Source of the DNA: an uncultured Clostridia bacterium
GTDB taxonomy: Bacteria; Bacillota; Clostridia; Oscillospirales; Ruminococcaceae
Direction of reading: 5' to 3'
Length of the DNA stretch: 43,565 bases
Assembly: GCA_947589035.1 (NCBI GenBank)
Contig: CANPYZ010000020.1
Coordinates: forward strand, 1-43,565
Every line of letters starts with the position of its first letter. Positions within the stretch are counted from its first letter, which is position 1. This document shows positions 17,010 through 27,069 of the stretch, in pieces. The notes under the pieces were generated by a model. The model was not told where the DNA came from. It searched no databases and saw nothing but the letters and a program-made list of their open reading frames with translations. The position numbers and the translations under genes are program-made.

Positions 17010-19310
17010 ATGGATAAGTACATTGGGAAAAAATTAGACGGCAGGTATGAAATTACCGAGCTAATCGGTGTAGGAGGCATGGCAGATGTCTATAAGGCGA
17101 CAGACATTATTGACAACAAAATTGTTGCGGTCAAAATTCTGAAAACAGCCTATGCGGAAAATGAAGAATTTCTCCGCCGTTTCCGGAATGAATCAAGAAT
17201 GGTGGCAGCATTGTCACATCCGAACATCGTCAAAGTGTATGATGTAGGATTTTCGGACAAATTGCAATTTATTGTCATGGAATATATTGACGGCATTACG
17301 CTGAAAGAATATATGGAAAATGAAAAAGTGCTGACATGGAAAGATTCTGTGCATTTTATTATACAGGTACTTCGGGCATTACAGCACGCACATGACAAAA
17401 GAATTGTTCACAGGGATATTAAACCGCAGAATATTATGCTGTTTACGGACGGAACAATTAAAGTCATGGATTTCGGGATTGCGAAATCTGCACGGGAACA
17501 GGCATACACGGCGACTGACCAAGCAATTGGCACAGTGTATTATATTAGTCCGGAGCAGGCAAGAGGGGAAGAAGTAGACGAAAAGAGCGATATTTATTCT
17601 GTCGGCGTGATGTTTTATGAAATGCTGACAGGGCAGAAGCCTTTTGACGCAGACAAACCCGTATCAATAGCGGTAATGCATATTAATAATGCACCACGCC
17701 GCCCACGGGCATTGAATGCAGATATTCCATCAGGTTTGGAAGAAATTATTCTCCGTGCCATGGAAAAAGACCCGGAAGACCGTTATCAGACAGCGGCAGA
17801 CATGATTAAAGACATTGAAAGTTTCAGAAGTAATCCGAATATGACATTCGGATATTATGAAGAAGTGTCAGAAAGTTCTTCTAATGACAAGGAAGAAACA
17901 GAATATCATGCAGCTGTTTCTGATGATGACGAATACGACGATGAAGAATATGATGACGATGAATATGAAGAAAACGATGATGACGAAGATGAAGACGATG
18001 ACGACGGCGATGATGACGATGATGACGACGACGATGATGATGATGAAGGAGAATCCCGTTCTTTATTCATTCCGGTAATGACCGCCGTAACAATTGCCTT
18101 TATCGTTGTGGCAGTGTTCTTTATTTTGTGGTTAGTGAAAGGCGTAATTGACGGAAACGGACAGCCGACAAAGTACGAAATGCCGAATTTAGTCGGTATG
18201 GATTACTATGAAGCCAAAGATGCCTACACGTATTTAGACATTCAGATTAACGAAACGGAAAATTCCACTTATGAAAAAGATGTGATTTATTTCCAGGATG
18301 TCGCTGTTGGTGACACAATTTCTCAAGGACAGACGGTTTACGTTAATGTTTCCTTAGGAATCAACATGGTAGAAGTTCCTGATGTCAAGAACTATCACTA
18401 TGAATACGCAAAGAAAACGCTTGAACAGGAAGATTTCGTTGTTGAACAGAAATATGAAATGAGTTCTGAAGGCATAGAAGCATCTAAAGTTATCCGTACA
18501 GAACCGGCAGCTGGTGAAATGGTTGAATCTGGTGCAACAATTATTATTTTCATCAGCCGTGGTGTGGAAGATGAATCTGTAGAAATTCAGAATTTAGTTG
18601 GTGCAGATTTAGACCATGCGCAGCAAGTCTGTGATTATTACGGTTTAGTGCTTAAAACACAGGAAGCACCTTCTACAGAACCAGCGAATACGGTTATTGC
18701 ACAAAGCATTGAACCAGGGCAGCTTGTTCCGGCAGGAACGGAAATTACTGTAACCTACAGTAATGGACAAGACCCAACCGGCGTAGTTCCTTTCTCTTTG
18801 ACATTACCGGAAAATGCATCAGGGCGTTTTGTATTAGACTTCCTTGACAGCAACGGCACAACAATTGCTTACAGCAGCACAATTAACGCTGCATTCTCCA
18901 GCGGAACGGTGAATACTCCGGTTTCCGGCACAGGTTCACAGCAGATTGTGGTTATTTTGAGTAACTATGCAACGAATCAGCAAGCTGAATTAGGTGTATA
19001 TAATTTTGACTTTGCCGGAATTTCTTACAGCGTAGTCCGTCAGGATATTCAAGGCGCATTTGAAGCCGTAGGCGGTATCAGCCAGCCGACAACAGAAAGT
19101 GAAGAAGTACCTGTAACAGATCCGATAATTGCGACTGCACCGCCAGATCAAGAACCTGTTCCATCTGATTTCAGTTTTGAAACAGCACCTGACCCGATTG
19201 TAGAAGACCCTTCTGAAGATGATATTTTTGCAACAACAAGTACAGAAACTAATTCAGAAGGAAATCAGGATGTAGATAATCCTGATGAAACTGCTCCGGC
19301 AGTAGAATGA
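17010..19310 (+). CDS. prkC: Membrane Ser/Thr protein kinase with PASTA repeats
   Basis: 766 residues. Kinase domain about 1-270 (IGVGGMADVYKA glycine loop, VAVKIL Lys, HRDIKPQN catalytic loop, DFGIAK, GTVYYISPEQARGE). Residues 305-348 form an almost pure Asp/Glu linker, then one transmembrane helix (about 351-376). Outside are three PASTA repeats (about 390-450, 452-519, 524-589) that sense peptidoglycan fragments, a beta-rich domain, and an acidic Thr/Glu/Pro tail. In Bacillus this kinase controls spore germination and cell-wall homeostasis. GGAGG lies about 9 nt before ATG 17010; the ATG at 16968 overlapping prpC lacks a site. Confidence 0.95.
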   Translation: MDKYIGKKLDGRYEITELIGVGGMADVYKATDIIDNKIVAVKILKTAYAENEEFLRRFRNESRMVAALSHPNIVKVYDVGFSDKLQFIVMEYIDGITLKEYMENEKVLTWKDSVHFIIQVLRALQHAHDKRIVHRDIKPQNIMLFTDGTIKVMDFGIAKSAREQAYTATDQAIGTVYYISPEQARGEEVDEKSDIYSVGVMFYEMLTGQKPFDADKPVSIAVMHINNAPRRPRALNADIPSGLEEIILRAMEKDPEDRYQTAADMIKDIESFRSNPNMTFGYYEEVSESSSNDKEETEYHAAVSDDDEYDDEEYDDDEYEENDDDEDEDDDDGDDDDDDDDDDDDEGESRSLFIPVMTAVTIAFIVVAVFFILWLVKGVIDGNGQPTKYEMPNLVGMDYYEAKDAYTYLDIQINETENSTYEKDVIYFQDVAVGDTISQGQTVYVNVSLGINMVEVPDVKNYHYEYAKKTLEQEDFVVEQKYEMSSEGIEASKVIRTEPAAGEMVESGATIIIFISRGVEDESVEIQNLVGADLDHAQQVCDYYGLVLKTQEAPSTEPANTVIAQSIEPGQLVPAGTEITVTYSNGQDPTGVVPFSLTLPENASGRFVLDFLDSNGTTIAYSSTINAAFSSGTVNTPVSGTGSQQIVVILSNYATNQQAELGVYNFDFAGISYSVVRQDIQGAFEAVGGISQPTTESEEVPVTDPIIATAPPDQEPVPSDFSFETAPDPIVEDPSEDDIFATTSTETNSEGNQDVDNPDETAPAVE
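17922..18053 (+). repeat. GAY/GAR trinucleotide tract coding an acidic linker
   Basis: Nearly uninterrupted GAT/GAC/GAA codons encode residues 305-348 of PrkC, ending in a run of 12 Asp. Any whole-codon slippage would lengthen or shorten the linker without breaking the frame. Confidence 0.8.
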
Positions 19311-20191
19311 CAGGGGATAACATTCCGGAAGCATACAGAATCATGAAATCCGTTAGGGGACTCTACACGGTAGTGTCCCCTGATGGCATTCTTCAGGAAT
19401 GTTCCGCAAGGGGAGTTCTTCGCAAAAGAGGACAGGAACCCTATGTCGGGGACTGGGTAAAAGTAGAAGAAAATGTGATTACGGAACTGTTTCCGAGAAA
19501 AAATGAAATCATTCGTCCGCCGCTTGCGAATTTAGACCAATTATGTTTTGTTGTTTCTATGTGTGAACCACAGCCGAATGTGCGTTTATTAGATAAATTC
19601 ATTGCTGTAGCCGTGTATAAAAATATTCAGCCGTTGTTATTTTTAACGAAAATTGATTTATCGGCTTATCAGGAAATTTATGAATTATATCAGTCTGTTG
19701 GCGTTCCGGTTTTCCTGATTGATTACCAGAATCCGGAAAGTTTAGCAGCAGTGAAAAAAGCGTTTCAGCATAAAGTGAGTGCTTTAACCGGAAACAGCGG
19801 TGCAGGGAAATCCACTTTATTGAATGCATTATATCCTGATTTATCTATTCCAACGGGGGAAATCAGTCAGAAATTAGGACGTGGAAAGCATACAACAAGA
19901 CATGCGCAGCTTTATGCTTTAGAAAATGGCGGATATATTGCAGATACACCAGGATTTTCGACGTTCGAAACAATGCGTTATGCGGTCATTCGGAAAGAAG
20001 AACTTGCGGATTGTTTTCTTGAATTTGGGGAATATCAGCATCAGTGCCAGTTCCACGACTGTTCGCACACTTGCGAAAAGGGTTGTGCAGTGTTAGAGGC
20101 GGTGAAAGAAGGGAAAATTCCGTTAAGCCGTCATCAGAGTTATTGTGAAATGTACGCTGAAGCGAAACAAATTAAGGAGTGGGAAACATGA
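19307..20191 (+). CDS. rsgA: Small-ribosomal-subunit biogenesis GTPase RsgA
   Basis: 294 residues. Circularly permuted GTPase that checks late 30S assembly. An OB-fold N-terminus is followed by G4 LFLTKIDL, G1 GNSGAGKSTLLN and G3 DTPGF in permuted order, then a zinc site with Cys and His ligands (CQFHDCSHTCEKGC). Overlaps prkC by 4 bases (ATGA) and thiN by 4 bases. The rpe gene usually found after it is missing. Confidence 0.96.
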   Translation: MTGDNIPEAYRIMKSVRGLYTVVSPDGILQECSARGVLRKRGQEPYVGDWVKVEENVITELFPRKNEIIRPPLANLDQLCFVVSMCEPQPNVRLLDKFIAVAVYKNIQPLLFLTKIDLSAYQEIYELYQSVGVPVFLIDYQNPESLAAVKKAFQHKVSALTGNSGAGKSTLLNALYPDLSIPTGEISQKLGRGKHTTRHAQLYALENGGYIADTPGFSTFETMRYAVIRKEELADCFLEFGEYQHQCQFHDCSHTCEKGCAVLEAVKEGKIPLSRHQSYCEMYAEAKQIKEWET

Positions 20192-20820
20192 GTGGGAAAT
20201 TATACTGTACAATTATTGCTGGCGGAGATGTTCAGGAAAAAATTGATTTACACGATAGGGAAAAGCAATTGCTTATTTGCGCAGACGGGGGATATTTTCA
20301 TGCATTGGAGCAAGGCATTGAACCAGATGTGTTAATGGGTGATTTTGATTCTTACACAGGGAAACTTCCGGAAAAAGTGAATATCATTCGTTATCCGGAA
20401 GAAAAAGATTTTTCTGATACATGGGCGGCTGTTCAGTATGGAAAAGAACAGGGAGCGGAAATTTTTGAACTTTACGGCGGCTGTGGCGGAGAACGATTTG
20501 ACCATACAATCGCTAATTTGCAAGTTATGTGTGCATTGGCAAAAGAGCATTTGCAGGCGGTCATGTTTTACCAGAATCAGAAATTAGTGACATTAAGTGC
20601 AGGGGAAACATTTTCCGTTCCGGCAGAAAAATTTCCGGAATTTTCTGTTTTTGCGTTGTCGGACGTTTGCAGAGGGGTAAGCATTACCAAAGCGAAATAT
20701 AAATTACACAATGCAGAATTAACGAATCAATTTCCTTTAGGGTTAAGCAATAGTTGTCAGGGAAATGCAGAAATTTCTGTTCAGGAAGGAGAAATTCTGT
20801 TAGTCCTGAGAAAAAAATAA
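20188..20820 (+). CDS. thiN: Thiamine pyrophosphokinase
   Basis: 210 residues. Transfers pyrophosphate from ATP to thiamine to make thiamine diphosphate. CADGGYFHALEQGIEPDVLMGDFDS (start of the catalytic domain), EKDFSDTWAAVQY and YGGCGGERFDHTIANLQVM are the typical TPK motifs. AAGGAG precedes ATG 20188 by about 9 nt; the GTG at 20179 overlaps that box. Last gene of the operon begun by yicC; its neighbours rsgA and spoVM match the Bacillus order. Confidence 0.93.
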   Translation: MSGKLYCTIIAGGDVQEKIDLHDREKQLLICADGGYFHALEQGIEPDVLMGDFDSYTGKLPEKVNIIRYPEEKDFSDTWAAVQYGKEQGAEIFELYGGCGGERFDHTIANLQVMCALAKEHLQAVMFYQNQKLVTLSAGETFSVPAEKFPEFSVFALSDVCRGVSITKAKYKLHNAELTNQFPLGLSNSCQGNAEISVQEGEILLVLRKK

Positions 20821-20844
20821 TTTGTCACACTCCGGAAAATTCTG

Positions 20845-20852
20845 CATAAAGT
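20845..20852 (+). promoter_or_regulatory. Possible sigma-E promoter of spoVM
   Basis: CATAAAGT resembles the sigma-E -10 (CATACANT); GTCACAC at 20824-20830, 14 bases upstream, is a poor-to-fair -35. B. subtilis spoVM is sigma-E dependent. Tentative. Confidence 0.35.
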
Positions 20853-20883
20853 GTAATATACTGAATGCAGGAGGTACTGAACA

Positions 20884-20973
20884 ATGAAAATTGTTGTGAT
20901 TAAAAGCCCGAAATTTTTAGCAGGTGTATTGCGTTTAATGTTTCACATCAAGAAAGAAACGCCGACAGAATGA
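20884..20973 (+). CDS. spoVM: Stage V sporulation protein SpoVM
   Basis: A 29-residue amphipathic peptide. Its first half MKIVVIKSPKFLAGVLRLM aligns residue for residue with B. subtilis SpoVM (MKFYTIKLPKFLGGIVRAM), keeping the Pro-9 kink, PKFL, the small residue pair and the Arg. SpoVM recognises the convex forespore membrane and recruits SpoIVA to build the coat. AGGAGGT sits 8-9 nt before the ATG. The gene follows thiN exactly as in Bacillus and is followed by its own terminator. The tail (HIKKETPTE) is 3 residues longer than in B. subtilis. Confidence 0.93.
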   Translation: MKIVVIKSPKFLAGVLRLMFHIKKETPTE

Positions 20974-20985
20974 ACAAAGGCGGAT

Positions 20986-21019
20986 TCAGGAGAATGCAGA
21001 AGCATTTCTCCTGATTTTT
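20986..21019 (+). terminator. Rho-independent terminator after spoVM
   Basis: TCAGGAGAATGC pairs with GCATTTCTCCTGA (one bulged A) around AGAA, followed by TTTTT. Confidence 0.9.
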
Positions 21020-21022
21020 CTG

Positions 21023-21030
21023 CATAGAAT
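21023..21030 (+). promoter_or_regulatory. Possible sigma-E promoter of the M50 protease unit
   Basis: CATAGAAT (sigma-E-like -10) with GCATTTC at 21002-21008 as -35, 14-base spacing. The block TTCTGCATA is shared with the spoVM upstream region. Tentative. Confidence 0.35.
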
Positions 21031-21060
21031 ATAACAAAATGCTGAAAGGAGTTTATAGAA

Positions 21061-21360
21061 ATGCAGGAAGAAGTGATTCTTGAAATTCCGCAGCAAGACG
21101 AAAATCAGGATTCTGCGGAATGGCAGCCGCCTGTTTTACGGAAAGAACCAATTCCGGAAAAGAAATTACAAAGTTGTGCAGATGTATTTTTCGTGCAATA
21201 TTTAATTTGCATTATTTTGCTGACAATAATATTTTCTGTAAAATTATGGGACGAGCAAAGTTTTCAAAACGTGGTAAATCAATTTTCAGAACAGATTCAC
21301 AAGCCGTCTGAAATTTGGGTATTATCATTGATTGAATGGGTGAAACAACTTTGGAATTGA
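21061..21360 (+). CDS. Short single-pass membrane protein, SpoIVFA-like anchor without LytM domain
   Basis: 99 residues: an acidic cytoplasmic N-terminus (1-40), one hydrophobic helix (about 44-62, VFFVQYLICIILLTIIFSV) and a short amphipathic tail (SFQNVVNQFSEQI). The N-terminus-plus-helix resembles the start of clostridial SpoIVFA/SpoIIQ-type proteins, but their extracytoplasmic M23 (LytM) domain is wholly missing. AAAGGAG is 9 nt before the ATG. The M50 protease gene begins inside its 3' end, so the two are coupled as spoIVFA-spoIVFB are in Bacillus. Function as inhibitor or anchor of the protease is inference from this position. Confidence 0.65.
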   Translation: MQEEVILEIPQQDENQDSAEWQPPVLRKEPIPEKKLQSCADVFFVQYLICIILLTIIFSVKLWDEQSFQNVVNQFSEQIHKPSEIWVLSLIEWVKQLWN

Positions 21361-21911
21361 ACATCGGGCAATTACATATTGTCATTAATTTTAGCTTTCC
21401 AATGATTTTAGCGTGGATATTTCTGCAAAAAGATGCTGAATTAATTAAACAAATATTAGCCGTAAGTATGATTCATGAAACGGGTCACGGGCTTGCCATG
21501 TGCCTGACGAAAGCAGGAATACGGGAAATTCGCTTTTACGCCGCCGGAATCCGTATGCAGACGAATGCTTATTTATTAAGTACAGGGAAAATATTAGCCG
21601 TTTATTTAAGCGGACCAGTAATGAATTTATGTTTTGCCTTGTTATTCTGGAAAATGAATCAGTTTGTCGCTATATTGCATTTATGGACGGGAATATTTAA
21701 TTTATTGCCGTATCGAGTGCTTGACGGCGGTGCAGCGTGGGAAAATTTTTTCGAAATGAAAACAGAATGGTTAGACATCAGAAAAAAATTTTGTCTGATT
21801 TTGTCAATGGCAATCCTATTTTTGTTATTTTTCCGGCATATTCAGAATCTGGCACTATATTTGATGATAATTTATTTGACTTTTTGTGAAATTTCGGTTG
21901 ACAAACTGTGA
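21336..21911 (+). CDS. spoIVFB: M50 site-2 metalloprotease, SpoIVFB-like
   Basis: About 191 residues and several membrane helices. HETGHG (H47, E48, H51) is the zinc-binding HExxH, and NLLPYRVLDGG supplies the third ligand Asp-130; both lie in hydrophobic segments as in SpoIVFB, which cleaves pro-sigma-K in the mother cell. No PDZ or CBS domain. The start is uncertain: ATG 21336 lies 25 bases inside the previous gene with no Shine-Dalgarno, while TTG 21351 has GGGTGA 7 nt upstream. At about 190 residues it is shorter than B. subtilis SpoIVFB (288). Sporulation role is supported by the adjacent spoVM. Confidence 0.82.
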   Translation: MGETTLELNIGQLHIVINFSFPMILAWIFLQKDAELIKQILAVSMIHETGHGLAMCLTKAGIREIRFYAAGIRMQTNAYLLSTGKILAVYLSGPVMNLCFALLFWKMNQFVAILHLWTGIFNLLPYRVLDGGAAWENFFEMKTEWLDIRKKFCLILSMAILFLLFFRHIQNLALYLMIIYLTFCEISVDKL

Positions 21912-25731: not shown

Positions 25732-26436
25732 ATGGAATCAGAAGAATTAACAGAAAATCCGGAAGAAGAAACACCGGAGGAAGAAACGTCAGAACAAGGA
25801 AAGAAGAAGAAAAAGAAAAAAACCAAGGAAGAACTATTCAATGACGTGGTAGAAATTCTTGAAACTATGTTGGTTTCCGTGTTTGTTGTCCTGATGCTGT
25901 TCACGTATCTGATTCGTCCGGTTACTGTTGACGGGCATTCAATGGTGCCGACACTTCAAGATAAAGATAGTCTGGTTATGCGAAGGATTTTATATCAACC
26001 GCATCAGGGGGACGTTGTCGTTGTCAGCAATTATGCCGGGCATGTTCTGGACAGTACAGGAAATGTTATTGACAGCGGTTCATCACTGAATGAAATTTTA
26101 ATTAAGCGAGTGATTGCCGTTGCAGGGCAAACTGTTGACATTCGAACGGACGAAGGGAAAGTATACGTTGACGGGGAAGCACTTGACGAACCTTATGTCA
26201 ATGAGCCGACGTTAATTGATGATGGGGCATTTTCCTATCCGATTACCGTTCCGGAAGGATATATATTTGTTATGGGAGATAACCGGAATCATTCAACAGA
26301 CAGCCGGAATGCCCATGTAGGGTTAATTGCGGAAGAAGATGTTTTAGGAAACGCCTTTTTCCGTTGGAAATCGACAGAAACGGACGAAACCGGAAACGAA
26401 GTTGCTTCATTTGATACAATCGGGTTTATTCATTGA
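25732..26436 (+). CDS. lepB: Signal peptidase I, first copy
   Basis: 234 residues. Cleaves signal peptides of exported proteins. A Glu-rich then Lys-rich cytoplasmic N-terminus (1-37), one membrane anchor (about 46-63), then box B with the catalytic Ser in DGHSMVPTL, box D with the catalytic Lys in LIKRVIAVAGQ and box E GYIFVMGDNRNHSTDSR. GAGGTG lies before ATG. The two copies here are adjacent, 18 bases apart, and clearly paralogous. Confidence 0.95.
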   Translation: MESEELTENPEEETPEEETSEQGKKKKKKKTKEELFNDVVEILETMLVSVFVVLMLFTYLIRPVTVDGHSMVPTLQDKDSLVMRRILYQPHQGDVVVVSNYAGHVLDSTGNVIDSGSSLNEILIKRVIAVAGQTVDIRTDEGKVYVDGEALDEPYVNEPTLIDDGAFSYPITVPEGYIFVMGDNRNHSTDSRNAHVGLIAEEDVLGNAFFRWKSTETDETGNEVASFDTIGFIH

Positions 26437-26454
26437 TTGTACGGAGCAGAAACA

Positions 26455-27069
26455 ATGAAAGAATATATACGTTTTTCCCGAAATCGCAAATTAAACCGGT
26501 TCATTGGGGAAGCAGTGGACATTCTGAGTGCGGCAATGGTTCCTATTTTTCTGATGATTTTGTTATTTACCTATGTTTTTCGTGTAGCGATTGTGCAAGG
26601 AGATTCCATGCTGCCGACATTGCAGAATGAAGACAGATTATTAGTTTTTCAACTTCAATCGAGACCGCATAACGGGGAAATTATTGTCATCAATGCGGAA
26701 AGTGCTGCATTGATTGCGGAAAACGGTTCATTATACATGGCAGACGGCTTGCATAAAAGCATTGTCAAGCGGGTGGTTGCCGTAGGCGGTCAGACACTTG
26801 ACATTCATTCAGAAGAAGGAATTGTTTACATTAACGGCGAACCGCAGGAAGAATTATACACGAACACAATTACACAATTGCCGGCTTTAGGCAATGCATT
26901 CGGCTATCCGTTTACCATTCCGGAAGGATATGTATTTGTTATGGGAGATAATCGGGATATTTCTTTAGACAGCAGATATGTGAATGTTGGGCTTGTTCCG
27001 GAAGAAGACATTGAAGGAACAGTTTTATTAAGATTATACCCGTTGGAAAAACTCGGCACAGTGCAATGA
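26455..27069 (+). CDS. lepB: Signal peptidase I, second copy
   Basis: 204 residues, without the long charged N-terminus of the first copy. Anchor helix about residues 23-45, QGDSMLPTL (catalytic Ser), SIVKRVVAVGGQ (catalytic Lys), GYVFVMGDNRDISLDSR. GGAG is 9-10 nt before ATG 26455; the frame opens 6 codons earlier at TTG 26437 without support. Differences in the substrate-pocket strands suggest different signal-peptide preferences (inference). Confidence 0.94.
   Translation: MKEYIRFSRNRKLNRFIGEAVDILSAAMVPIFLMILLFTYVFRVAIVQGDSMLPTLQNEDRLLVFQLQSRPHNGEIIVINAESAALIAENGSLYMADGLHKSIVKRVVAVGGQTLDIHSEEGIVYINGEPQEELYTNTITQLPALGNAFGYPFTIPEGYVFVMGDNRDISLDSRYVNVGLVPEEDIEGTVLLRLYPLEKLGTVQ

Follow-up and report, generated by a model that had tools for sequence, protein, structure and literature searches.

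The spoVM locus of the window

The window analysed here is a 43,565-nucleotide stretch of DNA from an uncultured bacterium of the Clostridia (family Ruminococcaceae). On its forward strand a 29-codon open reading frame directly follows thiN, and downstream of it lie orf99 and a gene for an M50 protease, with a ribosome binding site, a terminator hairpin and two sigma-E-type promoters between the genes (Table 1). The initial annotation had called the short frame spoVM and set it right after thiN; both its exact ends and the AGGAGGT before it were recovered from the sequence, and TIGR01378 confirms the preceding gene as thiN. NCBIfam models also identify priA, prkC and rsgA upstream, while def, fmt, rsmB, rlmN and prpC are names that we presume from gene order and size, after the B. 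subtilis cluster. The prkC gene, which encodes a PASTA kinase, contains an acidic Asp/Glu-coding repeat tract (17921–18046), and two signal peptidase I genes lie in tandem at 25732–27069. Rfam returned nothing at gathering thresholds for the window, and a tRNA scan of it found none.

Table 1. Positions of genes and signals around spoVM in the window.
Feature	Position	Strand	Evidence
thiN, thiamine pyrophosphokinase, upstream of spoVM	20179..20820	+	TIGR01378 126.4 bits, cut-off 76.4
Weak sigma-E-type promoter TCACACT-N13-CATAAAGT, 5′ of spoVM	20825..20852	+	motif match
Ribosome binding site AGGAGGT, 8 nt 5′ of the spoVM ATG	20869..20875	+	sequence
spoVM, SpoVM amphipathic membrane-anchor peptide	20884..20973	+	NF033436 49.5 bits; phmmer match to PDB 2MVH
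Intrinsic terminator hairpin of spoVM, then T-rich tail	about 20986..21019	+	fold
Near-consensus sigma-E-type promoter GCATTTC-N14-CATAGAAT, overlapping the spoVM terminator arm, 5′ of orf99	21002..21030	+	motif match
orf99, 99 aa, one transmembrane segment (by eye), putative LytM-less SpoIVFA replacement	21061..21360	+	homologues in 5 relatives
M50 site-2 protease, SpoIVFB-like, 191 aa	21336..21911	+	PF02163 35.6 bits, cut-off 27.2

The product of the short frame, MKIVVIKSPKFLAGVLRLMFHIKKETPTE (29 aa), was compared with the broad NCBIfam model of SpoVM (NF033436), a search that the initial annotation had proposed, and scored 49.5 bits (cut-off 31, E = 3e-13). When the whole host assembly (2.41 Mb, 72 contigs, 95.9% complete) was searched with the same model, spoVM was the sole match above the cut-off (47.4 bits, E 7.3e-12), and the next two matches had E values of 0.367 and 1.26. 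The product does not pass the narrow SpoVM model NF011327 (18.7 bits, cut-off 55) and would not be filed under it, and Pfam gave nothing for it at E 1.

In a phmmer search of the PDB, residues 1–20 aligned without gaps to the B. subtilis SpoVM chain of 2MVH (E 0.028). The first 19 residues had been said to match B. subtilis SpoVM position by position; this is overstated, since only 11 of the 19 are identical, which rules out identity over this stretch. The two peptides belong to the same length class and share K2, I6, P9, G14 and R17, whereas the window peptide has Ser8 for Leu, Val15 for Ile and a different C-terminal tail that is 3 residues longer. Among these positions K2, I6 and P9, all present here, are described as important in passages of PMC5607322. 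Pro9 was retained in 20 of 20 aligned homologues, which were a selection from the loci analysed. A SpoVM-like frame that adjoins sipL and spoIVA in another genome (L098, 2089–2226; from G123, a fragmented assembly that is 82% complete) has serine in place of Pro9 (VVVVKSSKLL).

Compared with 34 relatives, the spoVM codons differ 226, 47 and 507 times at their three positions in order, a pattern that is the one expected of a coding gene; 327 of the codon differences are synonymous and 224 non-synonymous. To judge from these comparisons the frame is a genuine and ordinary spoVM, by which a known family gains one member.

The signals around the gene were assessed separately. The promoter candidate 5′ of spoVM has a poor −35 element, and its pattern matches once in the window against 0.27 expected; because at least one match also turned up in 23 of 100 window shuffles, the motif was rejected as decisive alone. 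Eight of 35 loci carry a looser form of the motif at the corresponding position (mean 0.027 and largest count 2 in single-base shuffles), six of the eight being the window and its near relatives and hence not independent, and the other 27 lack it there. The terminator ascribed to spoVM in the initial annotation is confirmed: a hairpin with Ts after it is present, within a 61-nt stretch that folds at −21.9 kcal/mol (z −4.08 against shuffles), although a strict terminator scan listed none at spoVM, where the hairpin stem has a bulge.

SpoVM and its partners in the host and its family

A SpoVM match (E up to 0.001) was found in 122 of 148 host-family genomes, 108 of them above the NF033436 cut-off and two (G031, G101) with a stop codon inside the match; SpoIVA was found in 128 and SipL in 127. 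Both SpoVM and SpoIVA occur in 116 genomes, SpoVM only in 6, SpoIVA only in 12 and neither in 14 (Fisher 1.5e-8), the test and all host-family counts being uncorrected for kinship. The six genomes with SpoVM only are 55, 78, 90, 84, 87 and 78% complete. In seven of the twelve with SpoIVA only, the spoIVA region rather than the thiN region was examined, and two of these hold a SpoVM-like frame beside sipL (L107 of G072; L109 of G104, on the opposite strand). These divergent frames, missed by NF033436 at E 0.001, were detected at E 4.1e-8 and 1.3e-7, respectively, with our own SpoVM profile, which leans towards the host family because it was built from 11 of its sequences together with B. subtilis SpoVM.

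The position after thiN recurs in the family. SpoVM and ThiN matches occur together in 110 of the 148 genomes, and in 75 of these the two genes lie within 3.5 kb of each other, 73 times on the same strand. A BLAST comparison of 24 relative loci placed a same-strand thiN homologue 5′ of spoVM in 20 of them but not in L060, L069, L071 and L072; the distance from thiN to spoVM is 2–3 kb in L061 and L068. Twenty relative regions had been chosen among genomes with a SpoVM match, mostly high-scoring ones, and seven of 11 named thiN-derived loci (L045–L048, L050–L052), in which the SpoVM profile found nothing, were left out of the 24-locus comparison. In B. subtilis, too, spoVM is positioned after thiN.

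The initial annotation had named spoIVA, spo0A and sigE as genes whose absence, along with a failure to match the SpoVM model, would speak against its reading; the model matches, and all three genes are present. SpoIVA scores 711.2 bits (cut-off 459.9), two proteins lie above the Spo0A cut-off (G000:C60:1536–2270 and G000:C31:19277–20005; L005, L006), and SigE passes one model (341.8 vs 339) and misses another (330.6 vs 348.6). The gene directly upstream of spoIVA encodes SipL, in which two SPOCS stretches are followed up by a LysM domain in the list of its parts. SigG likewise passes NF006071 (374 vs 372) and misses TIGR02850 (358.2 vs 457). A SigK-like protein is above the cut-off of the subfamily model NF004471 (264.9 vs 252), as is the SigE protein, misses TIGR02846 (249.7 vs 298.65) and has the lower SigE scores of the two. 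SpoIIR is above its cut-off (159.3 vs 151.9), and a SpoIIGA-like protein, whose gene adjoins sigE, is below (124 vs 209.55). Scores were 31.7 bits for a YqfC-like protein (cut-off 77.8), 227.5 for a SpoIIIAA-like protein (cut-off 281.3), 155.2 on a 400-residue part for a SpoVB-like protein (cut-off 372.3) and a weak 21.6 for SpoIIM (cut-off 100.2). Next to the host spoIVA (L092, 7926–13021), four consecutive minus-strand genes encode proteins that by eye are similar, secreted-looking and LRR-like.

Several of these genes follow sigma-E-type promoters. Thirty nucleotides before the sipL start lies TCATATT-N14-CATATACT, which is very close to the sigma-E consensus. The pattern KCATNTY-N14-CATANANT has 10 matches in the host genome and 0 in reversed form; because the orf99 and sipL sites served as the basis of its design, these two are not independent among the 10. 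Six matches lie 23–33 nt before a frame with a ribosome-site-like motif, three of the six frames encoding the YqfC-like, SpoIIIAA-like and SpoVB-like proteins, two encoding SipL and orf99, and the last a membrane-like protein that belongs to no recognised family. For one further match (L123) the frame starts 30 nt downstream and has no such motif, and at the other three there is either no frame or short frames without it.

Homology, coding constraint, genomic context and the presence of the partners form the basis for reading the 29-codon frame as spoVM, most likely encoding a short amphipathic mother-cell peptide that anchors SpoIVA in sporulation (probability about 0.95). According to this model, spoVM would be transcribed by sigma-E, as the weak motif suggests, and its short amphipathic product would be made in the mother cell during sporulation. 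By analogy with B. subtilis and C. difficile, the peptide would insert into the convex outer forespore membrane, sense membrane curvature, and bind and anchor SpoIVA, which together with SipL would build the basement layer of the coat.

Two other explanations were weighed. A frame this short could be a chance product between thiN and the next operon, in a region (20200–21600) overlapped by 27 open reading frames of at least 20 aa; this is exceedingly improbable and is refuted by the strength of the match to the curated model, by the recurrence of SpoVM matches in the host family and by the codon-position bias. The other explanation is that spoVM was inherited by descent in an organism that no longer sporulates, leaving the gene as a relic or with another use. 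Sporulation is not certain here since SpoIIM was only weakly detected, and passages of Galperin et al (2012; PMC3533761) place Ruminococcus albus 7 among Spo0A-positive non-spore-formers missing several sporulation genes. Against a relic stand the constraint on the spoVM codons, the full-length frames for SpoIVA, SipL, SigE, SigG, SpoIIR and the SigK-like and SpoIIGA-like proteins, and the sigma-E-type promoters 5′ of sporulation genes, and we consider it unlikely. The partner genes support the earlier suggestion of a spore-forming organism. A SpoIVA-based coat, which had been called plausible, is more than plausible because SpoVM, SpoIVA, Spo0A, SigE, SipL and others are encoded.

A candidate protease pair downstream of spoVM

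The promoter pattern preceding orf99 matches once in the window, against 0.04 expected. Its overlap with the terminator of spoVM was seen by eye in six sequences, namely the window and five relatives, among which the −35 element differs. The start of the M50 gene overlaps the end of orf99. The M50 protein contains the zinc motifs of its family, HExxH and NxxPxxxxDG, and in 8 of 8 M50 sequences these are retained as HExGH and NLLPxxxxDGG. A PDB search with the single M50 sequence gave a best E of 0.18, and a profile of the eight orthologues matched MJ0392 (6.8e-11) and SpoIVFB (8VJL; 1.2e-8), with others weaker. An M50 homologue lies downstream of spoVM in 7 of the 24 relative loci (BLAST). The host genome has three M50 matches including the window protein; the second is a 351-codon frame, probably RseP-like by its size, and the third (207 aa) by eye adjoins ScpA/ScpB-like genes.

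The arrangement resembles SpoIVFB and SpoIVFA in several respects: the protease has HExxH and an NPDG-type motif, the gene before it encodes a protein with one transmembrane segment, and the pair follows an apparent sigma-E promoter. The host also encodes the SigK-like protein, which carries a hydrophobic N-terminal extension before QFPKPL, where the sigma-K chain of 8VJL reads NAFPQPL. The differences lie in the domains. B. subtilis SpoIVFB has a CBS domain, for which the window M50 protein is too short, and orf99, for which Pfam returned nothing, is without a detectable LytM/M23 domain, unlike SpoIVFA.

Relatives vary at this position. In L037 the spoVM and M50 genes flank a gene for a membrane and M23 protein (PF01551, 111.4 bits), in L039 the M50 gene comes after spoVM with no membrane and M23 gene listed between them, and the window's clade has only a short membrane protein in place of the L037 protein. 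Comparison of profiles for orf99 and the L037 LytM protein gave an E of 0.003 but a probability of 10%, so that homology between them is only suggestive. In passages of Galperin et al (2012; PMC3533761), SpoIVFA is described as having no orthologue in clostridia, where LytM proteins take its place, and C. difficile as lacking spoIVFB. The sequences suggest that orf99 and the M50 protein are a compact pair for pro-sigma-K processing without a LytM-bearing SpoIVFA, and we put forward the hypothesis that orf99 is a LytM-less stand-in for SpoIVFA with an analogous role. If orf99 does replace SpoIVFA in this way, pro-sigma-K processing would be kept yet uncoupled from the LytM-based forespore signal.

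The spoVM–sipL–spoIVA block

Gene order elsewhere in the family connects spoVM to its partners directly. Among the 113 genomes with positions for both genes (G007, G009, G027 and G029, with SpoIVA fragments only, were left out), spoVM and spoIVA are found on one contig in 42 and no more than 5 kb apart in 33, where chance would give about 0.5 genomes by a rough estimate from genome size. In 31 of the 33 close pairs spoVM precedes spoIVA on a shared strand, and sipL sits between them in all 31 (22 from the position listing, 9 from regions), as in L066/L114 (G008), L061 (G004), L060 (G033) and L096–L104; the three basement-layer genes therefore form one block. In the two genomes with opposite strands (G006, G026), sipL–spoIVA is still next to spoVM, in divergent orientation. 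Because 22 of the 33 close-pair genomes are also thiN-linked (21 with the same strand and a gap <3 kb), the block may have grown at an old thiN–spoVM site, a direction that we infer. A mostly abstract-level literature search, which included passages of PMC9542656, PMC5607322 and PMC3533761, found no published description of the block, although one may well exist elsewhere.

C. difficile SpoVM likewise has SpoIVA and SipL as partners. Passages of PMC5607322 report that its gene is under sigma-E control and that the peptide is largely dispensable, with an about 3-fold loss.

Taken jointly, the two arrangements allow a tentative reading, to which we give somewhat less than even odds. In the window's clade spoVM would open a short sporulation segment, in which its terminator overlaps a sigma-E-type promoter driving orf99 and a compact protease of SpoIVFB type. 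The LytM-less replacement of SpoIVFA would be orf99, and pro-sigma-K processing would be retained but no longer tied to a forespore signal based on LytM. In other genomes of the family, spoVM would instead have been joined to sipL–spoIVA as a single coat basement-layer block.

The presence of spoVM here is itself expected, as a known and often unannotated spore-coat peptide in a host that has much of the sporulation set; passages of Galperin et al (2012; PMC3533761) note that SpoVM is seldom recognised in annotation, and ask if its role is unchanged in clostridia and if there are distant versions of it. The earlier claim that standard gene callers would miss the gene is probably too firm. The block and the orf99–M50 pair are two modest, testable observations that are more interesting than the spoVM gene. 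Missed SpoVMs can be sought at two positions, after thiN or beside sipL–spoIVA, and in the block gene order links SpoVM with its partners in clostridia; both the search positions and the block bear on these questions about SpoVM in clostridia.
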